Assembly (NCBI GenBank): GCA_020355945.1 | Contig: CP070627.1 | Span: 1,382,529 to 1,390,254, forward strand | From: Candidatus Aminicenantota bacterium | GTDB taxonomy: Bacteria > Acidobacteriota > Aminicenantia > UBA2199 | Direction: 5' to 3' | DNA: 7,726 bases | Shown here: positions 1-6,893 of the stretch, piece after piece | Position numbering within the stretch: the stretch's first letter is position 1 | Layout of the letters: every line of letters begins with the position of its first letter | The notes under the pieces: generated by a model | The model's input: only the letters and a program-made list of their open reading frames with translations | Database searches by the model: none | What the model was told of the DNA's origin: nothing | Program-made: the position numbers and the translations under genes

Positions 1-3000
1 TGTCCATATCTTCCCGGAGTCTTAATTCCCTGGCCAGGTGCGGGGCGATGGTTTCGGATGTTAATAACAGGTATTGGCATTGAACCAGGGGCGATTCGTG
101 GTACCGCCGCAGGATGGCTTTTAATAGACTGGTTTTTCCCAATTGGCGCCCCCCCACTAAAAAGTAATTGGCCGGATTTCGCTGCATGATTTGCGCCAAT
201 AATTGCTTACGCCCAAAGAAAATGCTTTCCCGGTCGATTCCTCCTTTGATGTGATACGGCGAGACCTGGGTCAATTTAACCTGGAGGGCAATGAGCCGGG
301 CCAGGGCGGTTTGCGGGTCCGGGCACAGCAGCAGGTGGGTGAGTTCTTTATAGGAGGGTGTGACCAGTAAGTTTTCGGTTTTAAGGGATTCTTTACGCAG
401 GGCTGCCTGTTGGGTTTCGTCAAGGGCAATAAGAATACAAACCCGGTAATTGAGTATTTCCACTTGTTTTAAGTTTTTGAGAATGTCGTGGGCTGACAAA
501 CCGGCCGCGGGAAAGGCCAGGAAACAGCGGTCCAGGTTCAGCATAAAATCACTGCTCAACCGGAGTTTGAACAGGTGGATGTCCTGGGGTGGTGTATTGA
601 TTTCCAGGGAAGGTTCAAGGCTGGCATCCAGTTGTTGGGCCAGGATATTGAGCTGCCTCTCCGGGTTATTATGGTGGTAAAAGTCAAGGGTTTTTTCCAG
701 GCGGGATTTTGAAACCCCGGCGCCGGAAAGTACGGTTTCCAGTCTGTGGGTACGGGCCAGGAGTTTTTGCGCCCGCTCCAGCCCGTGGGGTTCCAGGTGC
801 AGAAGTTCAAGGGGGGATTTTGATAATTGCGTTACCAACGGGTTCAGATAGAGTCGTACGTAATAAAGCCCGGCCAGCACCACCAGGGCCAGGAGGCCAA
901 ATATTCCATACCAATACCAGGCTGGCGGTGGTAAGCTAACGGCTTGGTTCTCGAATATCCATTCATGAACCGGGTGATTGGGTTTCCTGGCCACCAGGTC
1001 CAGGCGTAAATCGTTGTTTAATTGAAATTTATCCGGCAGCGCAAAAGAAATGTCAGCGATTTCACCCTTCTTAATTGACTCTGTCGCTGTATACAGGGAT
1101 AGGACGCCAATGGTGCCTCTAAATTCTATCCCCGTGGACAAGTCCTGGTGACCGGTGTTTTGTAGGGTCACTAAAAGTACGGCTTTTTCCTGTTTTTGTA
1201 TGGCGGCCTTGCGCAGTTCCAGGTGGGGAACATGAAGATTTACCGGGATTTCCAGTGAAACCGGGGCGCCGTAAGCAGAGGTGATCTTTAAATGTAAAGC
1301 AGCGGATTGTTCCCCGGGGTTGGTGTAGGGAGAGGCAGCAGATACGTGACAGGTGAATGAAGCGATTTTGTCCGGCTCCAGTGTGATTTGCGGGGCAGGT
1401 GGATGAAATACCAGGGGATTTTTTTCCCCTGGGCTCTCTCCTTTTTGCCGGACCACGTTGAGCCAGTACAGGTTTTCCGTGCCGGTGTTTTTTATTACCA
1501 TGGTAAATTCCGCTGCTTCGCCGTCATAGGTTTCCAATTTTTGAGGTTTTTCTAGGATAGAGAAGCGAATATTTTCAAATGATCGAGGGGGTGGAGGTTT
1601 TATTGGTTTGATAAGCCCGGATTCACTTTTTTTTACCAGGAAAGAACCGTCGTCATAACGCCAGACAAGGTTTTCCCCGTTGATGGAGAGCCAATTTCCT
1701 TTTTGGCTGTTGATGAAAGTCCATAATAGTTTTCCATCCGTTACCCGACGCAGTTGTATTGCGCGCCTATCTTCCGATAGAGATATTATGGTTTTTCCAC
1801 CATGGCTGGTACGATTTGTATTAAAATAAATCTGCCAGTTTTCCCTATTCGCGGGTATTTGTTTTATTTGTTTGTGGGTGGTCATATCCCATATACGGAT
1901 GTTCTTCCAAAAAAGGTTTGCAGCCAGGGTTTTGCCATCCGAGCTGAAAGCAACGGAACTTACAGGAAATATATCCACCGCCAGTCGCTGGATTTCTTTG
2001 CCACTGCTCACATCCCACAAACGCACGGTGCTATCATCAGACCCGGATGCCAGGATTTTGCCATCCTGGCTGAAAGCAACGGACCATACGAAACCAGTAT
2101 GCCCCTCCAGGTGCCGGATTTCTTTGCCACTGCTCACATCCCACAAACGCACGCTCTCATCTCTTGACCCGGAAGCCAGGGTTTTGCCATCCGGGCTGAA
2201 AGCAACGGAAATTACCAAATTAGTATGCCCCCCCAGGCGCTGGATTTCTTTGCCGCTGCTCACTGCCCACAAACGCACGATGTTATCATCAGACCCGGAT
2301 GCCAGGATTCTGCCATCCAGGCTGAATGCAACGGAATATACAGCACTCGTATGCCCCTCCAGGCGCTGGCTTTCTTTGCCGCTGCTCTCAGCCCACAATC
2401 GCACGCTGCTATCTCTTGACCCGGAAGCCAGGGTTTTGCCATCAGGGCTGAAAGCAACGGAAGTTACAACCATCGTATGCCCCTCCAGGCGCTGGATTTC
2501 TTTGCCGTTGCTCACAGCCCATAGTCGTATTGAGTTATCACGTGAATGAAATAACAAGCCACCAGACCCGGAAGCCAGGGTTTTGCCATCAGGGCTGAAA
2601 GCAACGGAAGTTACATCGCTCGTATGCCCCTCCAAGCGCTGGATTTCTTTGCCACTACTTACATCCCACAAACGCAAGGTGCTATCCCATGACCCGGAAG
2701 CCAGGGTTTTGCCATCCGGGCTGAATGCAACGGAAGTTACAACCATCATATGCCCTTCCAGGCGCTGGATTTCTTTGCCACTGCTCACAGCCCACAAACG
2801 CACGGTTTTATCATAAGACCCGGAAGCCAGGGTTTTGCCATCCGGGCTGAAAGCAACGGAAATTACCCTAATAGTATGCCCCTCCAGGCGCCGGATTTCT
2901 TTACCACTGCTTACAGCCCACAAACGCACGGTTCCATCATAAGACCCGGAAGCCAGGGTTTTGCCATCCGGGCTGAATGCAACGGAAGTTACGGAATGCG

Positions 3001-3493
3001 TATGCCCCTCCAGGCGCTGAATTTCTTTGCCGCTGCTTACAGCCCACAAACGCACGGTTTCGTCATAAGACCCGGAAGCCAGGGTTTTGCCATCTGGACT
3101 GAAAGCAACAGAATTTACAGCACGAGTATGCCCCTCCAGGCGCTGAATTTCTTTGCCACTGTTTACATCCCATAGTCGTATTGTGTTTTCACCGGAAGAT
3201 AAAATTATGTTCCCATACCCGGATGCCAGGATTTTGCCATCCGGGCTGAAAGCAACGGAATTTACATCACTGTACCTGCTAATATTTTTAATCAAATCCC
3301 GGATGTCATCGATTTTCTCCCCATGGGGCACGATGGGCGGATAGGATTTCACCGCCTGCACCCAGGCCCCACTGCCGGTTAATACCATTAATATTAATAA
3401 TAAAAATACCCCAATGGTCTGAGTTAACCGGCGCTCTCTCTTACTAGTCCGCATGCCAATCGCACATCCGATCAATAATCTTATTTGCCTCAT
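1..3493 (-). CDS. WD40-repeat, membrane-spanning P-loop (STAND/AAA-like) ATPase, 3' end outside window
   Basis: At least 1164 codons without a stop; the frame is still open at the left edge. Seen, in order: basic N-terminus and hydrophobic segment (about residues 15-47, ending VQA, a plausible signal-peptidase site); about 11 WD40 repeats (about 75-540) with SVAFSPDGK...LASGS...VRLW cores; a beta-rich region resembling Ig-like folds (about 580-845); one transmembrane helix (about 857-880, WYWYGIFGLL...); an unassigned alpha/beta cytoplasmic region; an FFGR box; and Walker A GGRQLGKTS (131-154). Walker B and later motifs lie outside the window. Inference: an extracytoplasmic propeller senses a ligand and controls an internal ATPase. 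The start at 3493 directly follows an in-frame stop. An in-frame ATG at 3454 gives a more typical signal peptide and is a real alternative. Neither start has a clear Shine-Dalgarno. Family-level call is firm; the biological role is not. Confidence 0.9.
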   Translation of the reverse strand, partial: MRQIRLLIGCAIGMRTSKRERRLTQTIGVFLLLILMVLTGSGAWVQAVKSYPPIVPHGEKIDDIRDLIKNISRYSDVNSVAFSPDGKILASGYGNIILSSGENTIRLWDVNSGKEIQRLEGHTRAVNSVAFSPDGKTLASGSYDETVRLWAVSSGKEIQRLEGHTHSVTSVAFSPDGKTLASGSYDGTVRLWAVSSGKEIRRLEGHTIRVISVAFSPDGKTLASGSYDKTVRLWAVSSGKEIQRLEGHMMVVTSVAFSPDGKTLASGSWDSTLRLWDVSSGKEIQRLEGHTSDVTSVAFSPDGKTLASGSGGLLFHSRDNSIRLWAVSNGKEIQRLEGHTMVVTSVAFSPDGKTLASGSRDSSVRLWAESSGKESQRLEGHTSAVYSVAFSLDGRILASGSDDNIVRLWAVSSGKEIQRLGGHTNLVISVAFSPDGKTLASGSRDESVRLWDVSSGKEIRHLEGHTGFVWSVAFSQDGKILASGSDDSTVRLWDVSSGKEIQRLAVDIFPVSSVAFSSDGKTLAANLFWKNIRIWDMTTHKQIKQIPANRENWQIYFNTNRTSHGGKTIISLSEDRRAIQLRRVTDGKLLWTFINSQKGNWLSINGENLVWRYDDGSFLVKKSESGLIKPIKPPPPRSFENIRFSILEKPQKLETYDGEAAEFTMVIKNTGTENLYWLNVVRQKGESPGEKNPLVFHPPAPQITLEPDKIASFTCHVSAASPYTNPGEQSAALHLKITSAYGAPVSLEIPVNLHVPHLELRKAAIQKQEKAVLLVTLQNTGHQDLSTGIEFRGTIGVLSLYTATESIKKGEIADISFALPDKFQLNNDLRLDLVARKPNHPVHEWIFENQAVSLPPPAWYWYGIFGLLALVVLAGLYYVRLYLNPLVTQLSKSPLELLHLEPHGLERAQKLLARTHRLETVLSGAGVSKSRLEKTLDFYHHNNPERQLNILAQQLDASLEPSLEINTPPQDIHLFKLRLSSDFMLNLDRCFLAFPAAGLSAHDILKNLKQVEILNYRVCILIALDETQQAALRKESLKTENLLVTPSYKELTHLLLCPDPQTALARLIALQVKLTQVSPYHIKGGIDRESIFFGRKQLLAQIMQRNPANYFLVGGRQLGKTSLLKAILRRYHESPLVQCQYLLLTSETIAPHLARELRLREDMD
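1883..3271 (-). repeat. Tandem WD40-coding repeats, 126-bp period, 11 units
   Basis: Eleven in-frame units, mostly 42 codons long. Most start after a conserved LEGH and carry SVAFSPDGKTLASGS, a variable patch, VRLW and SSGKEIQRL. Conserved CAT (His) codons fall at 3128, 3002, 2876, 2750, 2624, 2477, 2351, 2225 and 2099, which gives the 126-bp step. One step is 147 bp because unit 6 has 7 extra codons, and unit 1 has the same extra length. The first and last units are the most divergent. The DNA is nearly identical between inner units apart from two short variable patches, which suggests recent duplication or gene conversion. Confidence 0.95.
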
Positions 3494-3499
3494 GTCTTA

Positions 3500-3528
3500 A
3501 TTTTAAAGGAATCCGGTTTTAATTTCAA
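3500..3528 (-). promoter_or_regulatory. Sigma70-like promoter for the WD40 ATPase gene
   Basis: On the minus strand TTGAAA (3523-3528) and TAAAAT (3500-3505) are separated by exactly 17 bases, inside the 89-bp gap after the Abi gene. The predicted transcript start falls on or next to the ATG at 3493. This means either a leaderless mRNA from that ATG or a leader of about 40 nt if the ATG at 3454 is used. It also implies that this gene need not be co-transcribed with abi. Confidence 0.55.
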
Positions 3529-3582
3529 GACACTTAACAACTCTGAAGTTAGGAATTTTAAAATCGTAGAATGGATTAAAAA

Positions 3583-4464
3583 TCAATTCCATATTTTATG
3601 TGATTGCCATCCTGTCACAAATCCTATTTTACGAATATCTATATGAGGATACTCATCGAAGAACTTGATAATCTTACTTTTGAAATGGTACTCCGGGGAT
3701 AAATTTTTAATGAGATAATTTGTAATGGCAAATACTGAGAATACCTTATTGTTATCTATTGAAAATGGGGTACGCCATTTTTTAACTTTCCTGGGAATTA
3801 AGGGCTTGATGGCTAAAGTACGATTCCAGAAGCGTGCGTGATGAGCACATATGTTCCTGGTATATACAAGACAGTGAAGCCAGGACTTCAATACTTTCCA
3901 GTGAACGTTGAACTCTTTTGAAATTTCTGCTTTATCACTGTTCTTGAGTCCGGAAAAGAGTAATGATAGGGAGCCAAAGGACATCACCTCAGTCAGTATC
4001 CATAAAGGTAAACCTTGTGTATCTTCTTGATATTGCTGTTTAAATTGCTGGATAAATATCTCTTTGGATCGATCAACCTCGTTTTGAACATTGCTTACCC
4101 ACTGAGCATGATTAAAATATTCGGGGAAATTGGTTCCTGTGAGATACCCAAAGGGACCATATTCCTGGGCTAAATAGTAAGAAATTCTTGTTCTGATTGG
4201 AATTTCAACCCTGGAAATAGTTGATAGATAAAGATTTCTCAAGTCTCTATCGAAGTTATACAGCCTTTCAATATCCTCTATTTTCGTTCGGCCATTATAT
4301 CTATTTTTTTTAAATTGAAAAGTGATACCATAAGTATTCAGCCTGTAGAAACCAATTTTCCTGAGCAAATCAATCGCATAATCCCTATCGGAAATAACCA
4401 AACCGCGACTTTCAAGTAAATCCACCTGTTCTTGACAAGTTATTGGAAATTCTGTATATTGCAT
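3583..4464 (-). CDS. Abi_2 (AbiD/AbiF-like) abortive infection protein, HEPN RNase
   Basis: 293 residues, near the usual size for the Abi_2 family. Seen: an N-terminal block with DLLESRGLVISDRDYAI and an IGFYRLNTY core (about 14-45), a central LPLWILTEVMSFGSLS block (about 152-167), and RNICAHHARFWNR (203-215). The last contains the Rx4H motif (R203, H208) typical of HEPN ribonucleases. Known for the family: these proteins block phage growth by halting the infected cell, and HEPN members usually cut RNA. Cytoplasmic; no signal or membrane segment. The start at 4464 follows a T-tract with no good Shine-Dalgarno; the only G-rich stretch is GGCGGG, inside the 3' arm of the upstream hairpin. Composition is A+T-rich (18 of 60 G/C at 4201-4260, against 36 of 60 at 5641-5700 in the TIR gene), suggesting foreign origin. 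The next gene downstream has its own promoter-like sequence. Confidence 0.9.
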   Translation of the reverse strand: MQYTEFPITCQEQVDLLESRGLVISDRDYAIDLLRKIGFYRLNTYGITFQFKKNRYNGRTKIEDIERLYNFDRDLRNLYLSTISRVEIPIRTRISYYLAQEYGPFGYLTGTNFPEYFNHAQWVSNVQNEVDRSKEIFIQQFKQQYQEDTQGLPLWILTEVMSFGSLSLLFSGLKNSDKAEISKEFNVHWKVLKSWLHCLVYTRNICAHHARFWNRTLAIKPLIPRKVKKWRTPFSIDNNKVFSVFAITNYLIKNLSPEYHFKSKIIKFFDEYPHIDIRKIGFVTGWQSHKIWN

Positions 4465-4467
4465 AAT

Positions 4468-4512
4468 AAAAAAAACCCGCCAAGTTGCGCATTGTTAAGA
4501 GGCGTGGCGGGT
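4468..4512 (-). terminator. Rho-independent-terminator-like hairpin just before the Abi_2 start codon
   Basis: Minus-strand arms 4505-4512 and 4475-4482 are perfectly complementary over 8 bp, five of them G-C pairs or better in a row. The 3' arm leads straight into a run of eight T (4468-4475). The 22-nt loop is longer than in ordinary terminators, so the element may be a functional RNA as well as a stop signal. It would let only part of transcription reach the Abi gene, and its 3' arm includes the only G-rich sequence upstream of the ATG. Confidence 0.65.
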
Positions 4513-4519
4513 ATGTTAT
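4468..4519 (-). ncRNA. Candidate short structured RNA / RNA antitoxin upstream of the Abi_2 gene
   Basis: The predicted transcript starts around 4519, seven or so bases after the -10 at 4525-4530, and would end in the T-tract at 4468-4475. This gives an RNA of about 50 nt that stops three bases before the Abi ATG. It consists mainly of one hairpin with an 8-bp stem (ACCCGCCA/TGGCGGGT) and a 22-nt loop containing AACAATGCGCAAC. Promoter, short RNA, leaky terminator, toxin is the order seen in type III toxin-antitoxin loci such as ToxIN. I also recall, unverified, reports of noncoding RNAs next to Abi_2/AbiF genes. There is no tandem-repeat antitoxin array here. An attenuating 5' leader is the main alternative. 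Confidence 0.5.
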
Positions 4520-4524
4520 CTAGT

Positions 4525-4553
4525 AATATAGTATAGTTTTACTAAAAAGTCAA
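4525..4553 (-). promoter_or_regulatory. Strong sigma70-like promoter for the small RNA and Abi_2 gene
   Basis: TTGACT (4548-4553) and TATATT (4525-4530) on the minus strand have a 17-base spacer and are each one base from consensus. It is the best promoter match in the window. It points at the hairpin RNA and the Abi gene, with a predicted start near 4519, some 55 nt upstream of the ATG. Confidence 0.7.
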
Positions 4554-4695
4554 CTCATTTTGAATTTTTTTTGGAAATTATTAAGACGGAAAGGAACAAA
4601 CGAAATTCCCCTCACCCGGAACCAATGAAAAGCAACACCACCGAATTTCGCAGCATTTAGGATCACCTCGCCGAGGGGTAAGTTCTATTTTTTCA
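4554..4695. other. Intergenic region with interleaved inverted repeats
   Basis: No credible gene. Two inverted repeats interleave: CGAAATTC (4601-4608) with GAATTTCG (4643-4650), and CCCCTC (4608-4613) with GAGGGG (4673-4678). The order a-b-a'-b' is that of an H-type pseudoknot if transcribed, although base 4608 is shared by both stems. It lies between the divergent Abi and TIR promoters, so operator sites are an alternative. An 11-codon frame from 4625 is not convincing. Confidence 0.35.
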
Positions 4696-4724
4696 TTGCA
4701 TTTGACAATTCTTTATTTTATAAT
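4696..4724 (+). promoter_or_regulatory. Promoter-like sequence for the TIR gene, possibly leaderless
   Basis: A perfect TATAAT (4719-4724) lies six bases before the ATG at 4731. Seventeen bases upstream is TTGCAT (4696-4701), a weak -35. The same TTGCAT with a 17-base spacer precedes the LanC-like gene. A perfect TTGACA at 4702-4707 is only 11 bases from the -10 and so is probably not its partner. The predicted transcript start coincides with the A of the ATG. Confidence 0.5.
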
Positions 4725-4730
4725 TGCTCC

Positions 4731-6191
4731 ATGGATAACAAACATCGATTTCAGCCGCCGCCCCAAAAAAACCATAAATCCTACCACGCTTTTATCAGCC
4801 ACAAAAACGACTGCAAATCCTGGGTAAAAATCCTGGCTGAAAACCTGAAAGCCCAGGGTTTCAAAGTGTTCCTGGATGAGTGGGAAATCAAACCGGGTGA
4901 AAATTGGCTGGAAAATATTTACCGCGGCCTCAACAAATCCCAAAAAGGCATCCTGGTCATAACTCCAAACGCCATGGATTCCGGTTGGGTCAGGAAAGAG
5001 TATGAAGAAATGCTGATCCTCATGCAAGAAGACCCGGGCTTTCAAATCATCCCTGTTGTCCTGACTAAGCCGGTGCCGGGTTTTCCTTTTCTTAAAACCA
5101 TCCGCTGGATCGATTTTAGTGAGCCGGGCAGTTATAAACAGGCCTTCTATTCGTTGGTGTGCGCACTGGAAGATAAACCCCCGGGCCCTGTGCCAACGTT
5201 TAAAACAGAACCGGAAATCCCGGGCCAGCCCCCCAAGTCGCCCCCGGGACCGGGCCCGGATGAGATTGATTTCGTTGATGGATTGTTTAAACTGCTGTTT
5301 GACCGGAATGTGCTGGTGCTGCTGACCCGGGGAAATCCCAGTCAAGCCGGGGCAAAAGAACTTATCCTGGAAAAAGCCGGTCGCTTGTTCGGCCCGGACA
5401 ATGTCCGGCACCTGGCCCCTGCTTATGGCCCCCATGTGGATATGCGAGAATATTTTTCATTATTAAGCCAGCAGTGCCGGTTTTCGCCGCCAGCTCAAAG
5501 CGCAGTTTCTTTCCAGGCTAAATTTGAAGAACTCCTGGCTGATGACCACGAAATATTCCTGTTGATCAGCCGTTTTGAACACAGCAGCCGGGAAACCCGG
5601 GAAGAACTGGCTGCTTTACTGCGCAGCCTGGGCGAACGGTTTCCCCGGGGCCTCCGGGCCGTGATCTGCGGGGGCGAACAATTGTATGAACTGTCCTATA
5701 CCGGCACCCTCTCTTATCTTAACCAAGCCCAAATAATCGAATGGCCGGAAATGACAGACGCGGATGTCTTACGCACTGCCAACACCAGTGAAAACAGCAC
5801 CTGCCTGGCAGGAAAATTAATGCAAAAAATAGATGAAGACACCGCTGTAAAATTCCTGGAATTCAGCGGCGGCCATCCTGATGTTTTGGATACCTGTTTT
5901 GATCTTTATTCACAAAACCCTGGTTTTACCATGAAGGATTTAATCGAAAAATTGGTATCGTCGTCTTTCCTGTGGCAGTTATTTGTGCCGTTTTTCCAGG
6001 ACAGTGAAAAAAAAGAAAAAATCCGCCTTTTGTTGAAAAATAACCATGTTGGGCCTTACCAACCCTATCTTGATGACCCGCTGCTAAAAGAACTGTACTG
6101 GAAAAATCTACTGCACAAAGATAAAACCGGTGCGCGTCTCACCTGGCGCGGCCAGGCCCTGCGCCTCTCAGCACTCAACATCATGAGATAA
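4731..6191 (+). CDS. TIR-domain protein with degenerate STAND-like ATPase module
   Basis: 486 residues. Residues 17-146 are a TIR domain: YHAFISHKND (strand A and following loop), KVFLDEWEIKPGENW (box-2-like), ILVITPNAMDSGWVRKEYEE with E90 at the position of the catalytic Glu of TIR NADases, and a C-terminal IRWIDFS. A Pro-rich linker follows (about 148-175). Residues 176 to about 400 resemble a STAND/AAA core, with strand VLVLL before TRGNPSQAGAKEL where Walker A should be (no GK[ST]) and a Walker-B-like IFLLISRFEH. SGGHPDVLD and a winged-helix-like end (LKELYWKNLL...RLTWRGQALRLS) match the usual STAND tail. Known: TIR effectors cleave NAD+ when oligomerised. Inference: a defence effector whose pseudo-ATPase part senses or scaffolds. 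The ATG has no Shine-Dalgarno and sits 6 nt after a -10 box. The 3' end overlaps the convergent LanC-like frame by 24 bp. A SEFIR assignment is the main alternative to TIR. Confidence 0.88.
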   Translation: MDNKHRFQPPPQKNHKSYHAFISHKNDCKSWVKILAENLKAQGFKVFLDEWEIKPGENWLENIYRGLNKSQKGILVITPNAMDSGWVRKEYEEMLILMQEDPGFQIIPVVLTKPVPGFPFLKTIRWIDFSEPGSYKQAFYSLVCALEDKPPGPVPTFKTEPEIPGQPPKSPPGPGPDEIDFVDGLFKLLFDRNVLVLLTRGNPSQAGAKELILEKAGRLFGPDNVRHLAPAYGPHVDMREYFSLLSQQCRFSPPAQSAVSFQAKFEELLADDHEIFLLISRFEHSSRETREELAALLRSLGERFPRGLRAVICGGEQLYELSYTGTLSYLNQAQIIEWPEMTDADVLRTANTSENSTCLAGKLMQKIDEDTAVKFLEFSGGHPDVLDTCFDLYSQNPGFTMKDLIEKLVSSSFLWQLFVPFFQDSEKKEKIRLLLKNNHVGPYQPYLDDPLLKELYWKNLLHKDKTGARLTWRGQALRLSALNIMR

Positions 6192-6893
6192 ATCAAGGAA
6201 ACAGGCCAAATGCTGGCCGCCATCGGGAGTCATTCGCCATTTTAAACCTGCTTTTGCCGGTATGCCTAACGCCAACAGCCGTTTACCTGCGGCCGCCGCC
6301 AGATCATGCAGGCCCGGGTCTTTAAGCTCCTTTGCCATGGCCGCCAGGAACAACCCGATCCCGCCACTGCCGTATATGATGTCCGTACTGCTGTTCCATT
6401 GGACCCCCTCCTCTACTCTTTCGGCACCGCTGCGGATCAATTGCAGGCATTGACGTACGCCCCGCCGGTATTTTTCTTTGCCGGCGGCTTTAAAGACTTC
6501 CCAAAGAACAAACCCGATACCAGGAATAGCTGTGTATAAACCCATGTCTTTTTCGTGGGCAAGAGCGGCTAAAAGATAGTTTGCTCCTTCACAGGCATCA
6601 TTTAAGTATTGTTCCCGGCCCGTGGCATAATAAGCTTCAAGGAAAAACAAAATCACACCGGGGTTTCCTGTATAGAGAGTATTATCAACCGTGTGCACCG
6701 CCCTGGGGTATGCCGGCCATACTTTACCGGCACCAGGAATTTTTATCGCGGTGGAATTGATCCAGGCCGCGGCTTGCGCGGCCGGCTCAAGATAGGTGTT
6801 TGGGGAACGGTCACGGTTATAAGCCTGTTTAATGCCGGGAAAAATCACCATGATTACGATTAAAACAACCAGCACATACCGGGAACTTTTCAT
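6168..6893 (-). pseudogene. Truncated, exported LanC-like (lanthionine synthetase C-like) protein
   Basis: 241 residues; LanC-like proteins are usually about 400. An N-terminal hydrophobic segment (about 6-20, YVLVVLIVIMVIFPG) follows MKSSR, so the protein is exported or membrane-anchored, unusual for LanC enzymes. Alpha-toroid repeat signatures are visible: LYTGNPGVILFFLEAYY (73-89), IPGIGFVLWEV (123-133) and IIYGSGGIGLFLAAM (172-186). The next repeat begins LDLSH (233-237), where the family normally continues with Gly and a GxxG turn, but here DVEC and a stop follow. The zinc-ligand Cys/Cys/His residues of catalytic LanC lie in the missing half, so cyclase activity is not expected. GGAG (6906-6909) lies 12 bases before the ATG and a promoter-like sequence stands upstream. 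The break coincides with the 3' end of the TIR gene. No lanthipeptide precursor or LanB/LanM gene is visible. A functional short form cannot be excluded. Confidence 0.7.

Follow-up and report, generated by a model that had tools for sequence, protein, structure and literature searches.

The AbiF systems described so far offer the closest parallels to the locus presented here. According to the available text of PMC12373285, AbiF of Clostridioides difficile is toxic and its R202 and H207 variants lose toxicity, while RCd22, an RNA containing two abiF motifs, binds AbiF directly and so neutralises it both in cis and in trans. The same text, citing the PbAbiF-ncRNA structure, places AbiF near the type III systems and the ancestors of Cas13, and discusses the two-motif RNA as a step towards arrays. 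The accessible part of PMC12737573 reviews AbiF with regard to its antitoxin RNA and Cas13 ancestry, and describes PbAbiF-AbiFr as having one RNA per monomer.

In an earlier note on the window (the whole stretch of 7,726 nucleotides that was analysed), a HEPN toxin gene preceded by a short hairpin RNA was proposed to form a type III-like RNA-antitoxin module. This proposal gains support, because the hairpin matches the Rfam family RF03085 and the protein matches the structure 8VZ6, in which PbAbiF is bound to ncRNA. Hence, the locus is very probably (at a rough probability of 0.93) an AbiF toxin-antitoxin module working like a type III system.

The abi gene and the hairpin RNA ahead of it

The minus strand of the window encodes, at 3583..4464, an AbiF (Abi_2) HEPN protein of 293 aa, by homology a likely RNase toxin. 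Abi_2 was the sole Pfam family found in it (E 1.7e-52); PADLOC names the protein AbiD (E 1.1e-79), and an NCBIfam search of the 293-aa sequence gave no match. The PDB sequence search at E up to 0.1 returned one match, 8vz6_A (E 1.9e-48), spanning residues 9-291 of a reference lacking Met; the entry is entitled "PbAbiF dimer bound to ncRNA". The AlphaFold2 model of the protein has a mean pLDDT of 94.9 and a pTM of 0.90. Its comparison by Foldseek gave 73 matches up to E 10, and among the best 50 of these 73, which are the ones listed, 8vz6_A was the only match at E up to 0.001 (TM 0.92, 32% identity). The HEPN catalytic motif R203-N-I-C-A-H208 (3841..3858, minus strand) is intact and numbered as the earlier note had it. 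In an alignment of 34 sequences, that of the window among them, R, N, C, A and H of the motif never vary; the alignment numbers the motif R202/H207 because the reference sequence omits Met. The nearest protein relatives (P0002-P0006) are 61-71% identical, and their contigs lie outside the comparison.

Ahead of the gene, the minus strand carries, in this order, TTGACT-17-TATATT, a hairpin, eight T, ATT and the ATG at 4464. The promoter hexamers, the 8-bp stem with its 22-nt loop, the T run and the start codon three bases further on had all been pointed out before, and all were found again in the sequence and in the predicted fold. The putative promoter of the RNA (4525..4553, minus strand) is sigma-70-like and comprises a -35 TTGACT (4548-4553), a 17-nt spacer and a -10 TATATT (4525-4530), with 10/12 consensus matches; nine promoter-like sites were observed in 3000-5500, against 5.9 (sd 2.2) expected.

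The hairpin matches the abiF RNA motif RF03085 (4475..4511, minus strand) over the whole model, 1-37 of 37, with 57.2 bits at a cut-off of 37 (E 5.9e-9 over the window). Its membership of this curated family was overlooked in the earlier note, as was an inner stem of 3 bp (4502-4504 with 4488-4490) that is present in both the Rfam model and the predicted fold. The outer stem of 8 bp (4505-4512 with 4475-4482) encloses 22 nt, and base 4512 lies outside the Rfam match. On the same strand, CUCU occupies 4498-4501 and a CAA bulge 4485-4487. The first inner-stem pair is C-G here versus A-U in the RF03085 consensus, both sides being changed; no difference was seen that would set the window RNA apart from the family. 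The minimum free energy of the hairpin is -15.5 kcal/mol (z -2.79), with 3/200 shuffles equally good. The eight-T tract (4468..4475, minus strand), the first T of which (4475) pairs in the stem, resembles an intrinsic terminator together with the outer stem, but a plain terminator scan misses this hairpin because only loops of 3-8 are allowed. The hairpin ends 10 nt ahead of the AbiF start codon. The locus thus combines the features by which AbiF is recognised, namely an Abi_2 protein of ~300 aa with the HEPN R-x4-H motif and an RF03085 RNA directly upstream on the same strand. The type III-like order of promoter-like site, structured RNA, terminator-like end and HEPN toxin is as it was first described, the RNA falling into a known antitoxin family.

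In the surroundings of the module, the divergent neighbour (4731-6191, plus strand) encodes 486 aa, of which the N-terminal part is a TIR domain (TIR_2, 3.3e-28) and the C-terminal part matches no Pfam family; several PADLOC models of defence TIR proteins resemble this protein in part. A near-consensus promoter-like sequence, TTGACA-17-TATATT (11/12), is found on the plus strand at 4432-4460, within the beginning of the abi gene. It would read antisense through the antitoxin towards the TIR gene and may be a product of chance. The downstream neighbour (2-3493, minus strand) runs off the window and encodes at least 1164 aa with WD40 repeats (10 stretches), after which a membrane segment and a Walker A-like GGRQLGKTS stretch are seen by eye. 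Finally, a short LanC-like protein (LANC_like, 2.8e-14), with an N-terminal hydrophobic stretch by eye, is encoded at 6168-6893 of the minus strand.

The abiF RNA among related loci

A collection of genomes was scanned with a single pattern for the conserved peptide surrounding the HEPN motif, which yielded at least 569 relatives among at least 590 pattern matches. The survey sample consists of the best 80 of these (at least 569) loci and is not a random sample of Abi_2; by record title, the 80 loci belong to Omnitrophota, Lentisphaerae, Acidobacteria, Chloroflexi, Proteobacteria, Bacteroidota, Verrucomicrobia and others. With the cut-off set by Rfam, the abiF RNA was detected in 15/80 loci (8/16, 4/17, 2/15, 1/18 and 0/14 by batch), each time upstream and on the same strand as the gene, with the other 65/80 falling below that cut-off.

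When the window RNA and the 15 Rfam-level RNAs were aligned by MAFFT, whether tails were included or not, the 3' arm came out one base off in some sequences. Because of this misplacement, the covariance model R1 was built from six unshifted RNAs (window, L001, L009, L028, L044 and L063); L018, though unshifted, was excluded for its long loop. Searched against 705,416 bases at E up to 0.01, R1 gave 45 matches, which cover the window and 41/80 loci, and relaxing the threshold to E 10 added a few weak matches elsewhere (L021, L053 and L077, E 2.7 to 3.9). Two rounds of retraining on matches from the surveyed loci themselves produced R2 and R3. At E up to 1, R3 has a same-strand match within 400 nt upstream in 75/80 loci, a figure that is a description and not an independent test because R2 and R3 saw the same loci; 73/75 of these matches reach E up to 0.01, L040 and L051 being weak (E 0.25). 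The remaining R3 matches at E up to 1 are mirror-strand shadows (twice in L008, once in the window) and the opposite-strand RNA of L046, while R2 at the same threshold gives more mirror shadows and an extra minus-strand match adjoining the true one in L069. The search upstream of Abi_2 homologues that the earlier note had proposed thus returned the hairpin, with covarying stem pairs, rather than a set of homologues devoid of it.

A same-strand R3 match is missing in 5/80 loci: L046, L052, L058, L067 and L076. In the last four, a hairpin is apparent upstream by eye, unscored. In L046, which is the same locus as contig 95 of G003, the sole R3 match (4871-4918, minus strand) lies beside the abi gene (4941-5864, plus strand) and reads away from the toxin, which makes it a putative divergent antitoxin arrangement.

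The statement that the locus contains no tandem array holds for the window, with its one abiF RNA copy on the coding strand, but it cannot be extended to all relatives, since 2/75 loci carry two or three copies. Three abiF RNAs with an exact period of 99 nt (L031:47-98, 146-197 and 245-296) stand before a single abi gene of a Kiritimatiellae MAG, and further copies may exist there because the array sits at the contig start. In Allochromatium palmeri, two copies (L008:4711-4773 and 4899-4953) precede one abi gene. Close RNA pairs also occur in contig 2 of G240 and contig 47 of G137, where they are known from RNA matches alone.

Six whole genomes, picked for holding such loci, contained at least 11 RNA matches, each adjoining an Abi_2 match, and eight Abi_2 matches, each with an RNA; in 5/6 of these genomes, only 150 of the first-look RNA candidates were scored. 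Second loci beyond the 80 were found in contig 97 of G002 and contig 81 of G004, the latter consisting of an RNA and a remnant of Abi_2 that covers profile positions 141-184. In the phylum of G001, 33/288 genomes had an RNA match at E up to 1e-4 in a search that covered the RNA only, with stricter filters and 21 candidates scored per genome.

The 45 RNAs of R1 have 97.0% of cells paired and two-sided changes in 10/11 pairs, values reached by 0/500 shuffles; in the 66 RNAs of R2, 97.0% of cells are paired versus 79.0% in shuffles, with two-sided changes in 11/11 pairs (0/500 shuffles), although such pair counts lean towards structure because the alignments were fitted to the model. When the partner column was slid by one to three positions, pairing in the 66 RNAs fell to 21-61%. 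In 20/66 RNAs, the outer stem lacks its innermost pair. Within the inner stem, two of the three pairs vary in merely one or two of the 66 sequences, and the middle pair is G-C in 65/66.

As to the loop, YUCY follows the 5' strand of the inner stem in 61/79 rows of the alignment, and CA (42/79) or CAA (30/79) follows its 3' strand. The apical stretch, 7 nt long in the window, ranges from 6 to 31 nt across the 79 rows, and the longer ones are often hairpins by eye. AACAAU is present in 5/79 rows and AACRAU in 8/79. The earlier note had taken the long loop for a recognition element. The AACAAU part of that loop is variable, however, and the loop itself holds the 3-bp inner stem. Therefore, a recognition element, if there is one, is not the AACAAU part, which is rare, whereas YUCY is common. 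In the accessible text of PMC12737573, C32 and U38 in the bulge of a Prevotellaceae RNA are reported to inhibit the RNase.

The spacing of the flanking signals is shared by many loci. Of the 8 nt that follow the motif, at least five are T in 72/75 loci, versus 5.2% of random 8-mers from the same loci; because a T-rich tract follows the motif so regularly, the outer stem of the antitoxin looks as if it also served as a terminator stem. Hexamers resembling a -10 box (at least 5/6) start between 16 and 8 nt ahead of the motif in 36/78 rows, with peaks at -11 (22) and -12 (8), while four equally wide control intervals lying further upstream gave 5, 2, 4 and 3 rows. TAnnTTTG, a box known from Bacteroidota, is found at -11 or -12 in 29 rows. 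Either box is present at these positions in 53/78 rows and neither in 25/78; when the same test was moved 30, 45, 60 and 75 nt upstream, 2, 1, 2 and 0 rows were counted. The -10 TATATT of the window starts at -12 from the RNA motif. Model position 2 (the 5' A) is A in 78/79 rows, and this conserved A probably lies near the transcript start, as the -10-like boxes sit at a fixed distance from it. The conserved A and the promoter spacing suggest that the putative antitoxin RNA of the window is ~50 nt long, beginning with the conserved 5' (U)AACA and running through the last U of the tract (4468..4518, minus strand).

The distance from the hairpin to the start codon was determined with hand-picked start codons in 74 of the 75 loci, L042 being dropped as it has TTG starts only; in L034 an ATG was chosen over a nearer TTG, and in L077 an ATG at 15 nt over a GTG at 24. 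This distance is at most 18 nt in 25/74 loci (24 in the compact group with the alternative start of L077), and 21/25 of the compact loci are Bacteroidota by record title. A strict Shine-Dalgarno pattern (AGGA, GGAG or GAGG), which overlooks the AAGG of L028, occurs in 0/25 loci with a gap of at most 18 nt, in 15/43 with 19-53 nt and in 1/6 with at least 88 nt. Bacteroidota seldom use Shine-Dalgarno sites, and by eye none was seen before the window genes at 2-3493, 4731-6191 and 6168-6893. The missing Shine-Dalgarno site was considered as special evidence for translational control and is weakened in that role, since lineage habits may explain it equally.

Proposed mode of action and alternative explanations

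The families of the RNA and the protein, the predicted fold, the catalytic motif, the promoter- and terminator-like geometry and the covariation can be read from the sequence itself. From the published homologues we infer RNase activity, RNA-protein neutralisation and a role in defence, and by homology the RNA would neutralise the toxin at this locus. In such a module, a sigma-70-type promoter would drive a short RNA of which the hairpin is the abiF antitoxin. The outer stem and U tract would terminate most transcripts, so that the RNA would be in excess, and occasional read-through would supply the mRNA for the HEPN RNase. The RNA would then bind the toxin dimer and block its RNase activity. 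Should the balance shift, e.g. upon phage infection, free toxin would cut cellular RNA and growth would stop.

It is conceivable, if rather doubtful, that in compact AbiF loci, including the window, one hairpin serves as trans antitoxin, cis terminator and translational operator at once. As the hairpin ends within the ribosome docking zone, toxin bound to the hairpin of the read-through mRNA would halt its own synthesis, and the level of toxin would then be set by its binding to its own mRNA hairpin. The compact loci without a Shine-Dalgarno site fit translational control, as they may fit the habits of the lineage.

The hairpin could instead act purely in cis, lowering toxin expression as an attenuator or terminator, with the freed RNA inert in trans. 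Its stem and U tract directly ahead of the gene agree with this, and the C. difficile RNA, too, works in cis via termination according to the available text of PMC12373285. However, one would not expect a plain terminator to retain the inner stem with its nearly invariant G-C pair, the YUCY and the 5' A across phyla; furthermore, the homologue in 8VZ6, by its title, carries bound ncRNA, and the C. difficile RNA is active in trans (PMC12373285), all of which renders this explanation improbable. Even less credit can be given to the RNA being, in the manner of Cas13, mainly a guide by which the HEPN RNase finds its target RNAs, rather than an inhibitor. AbiF is reported as a Cas13 ancestor in the available texts of PMC12737573 and PMC12373285, and the apical part of the loop does vary among loci, yet this reading is set aside because the variable part is so short in the window; moreover, the longer ones often look like hairpins, not free spacers, and the published homologues are antitoxins (PMC12373285, PMC12737573).

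A test for chance occurrence accepted hairpins whose 8-bp stem contains at least four G-C pairs, whose loop measures 3-30 and which stand at six or more consecutive T; on the two strands of the window only one passed, at the abiF RNA site. That the hairpin arose by chance, or that it is the ordinary intergenic terminator of some other gene, can practically be dismissed. Although 17/600 simulated strands of equal length hold such a hairpin anywhere, the Rfam match has an E of 5.9e-9 over the window, and the place, strand and covariation are conserved in relatives.

Comparison with described systems

The probable AbiF toxin-antitoxin module of the window resembles ToxIN, CptNI and TenpNI both in the apparent order of promoter, RNA antitoxin, terminator and toxin and in the presumed logic behind it; the fold of ToxN is not known to be related to that of AbiF. 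An endoRNase of the ToxN/AbiQ type was not found, as Pfam gives Abi_2 and Foldseek, among the listed matches at E up to 0.001, 8vz6_A. In these three systems, the toxin and antitoxin structures are unlike those of AbiF, and the antitoxins are tandem repeats according to the available text of PMC12373285, whereas the window has no tandem-repeat antitoxin. The features of Cas13, i.e. two HEPN domains per chain and a CRISPR array, are not seen within the window, where one Abi_2 domain and a single RNA copy are present.

The likeness is closer to AbiF-RCd22 of Clostridioides difficile R20291, where an Abi_2 HEPN toxin with RNxCAH is likewise preceded by an RNA with the abiF motif, and where one SigA-type promoter and a terminator between RNA and toxin (available text of PMC12373285) correspond to the promoter- and terminator-like sequences here. 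Unlike the window, RCd22 has two motifs, a separate downstream terminator and an AGGTGA ribosome site, and its start codon lies 168 nt after the transcription start (PMC12373285), whereas in the window the start codon lies 10 nt after the motif and the single motif doubles as a terminator-like stem. The portions of PMC12373285 and PMC12737573 that are available hold no description of an antitoxin stem doubling as a terminator stem. To the PbAbiF-AbiFr pair (8VZ6; Zilberzwige-Tal et al.) the window is related in protein sequence as well as in fold, at the identity given above for the fold alignment.

Since the AbiF system is published and curated, the finding itself is an ordinary one, and its value lies in independent recovery from raw sequence and in a compact model locus. 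The survey of 80 loci adds a picture of common promoter spacing, of an antitoxin stem that is also a terminator-like stem, and of one to three RNA copies. The window is a further member of the published AbiF system and not a new system, and it adds a clean single-hairpin representative to a toxin-antitoxin family that is thought to be ancestral to Cas13.
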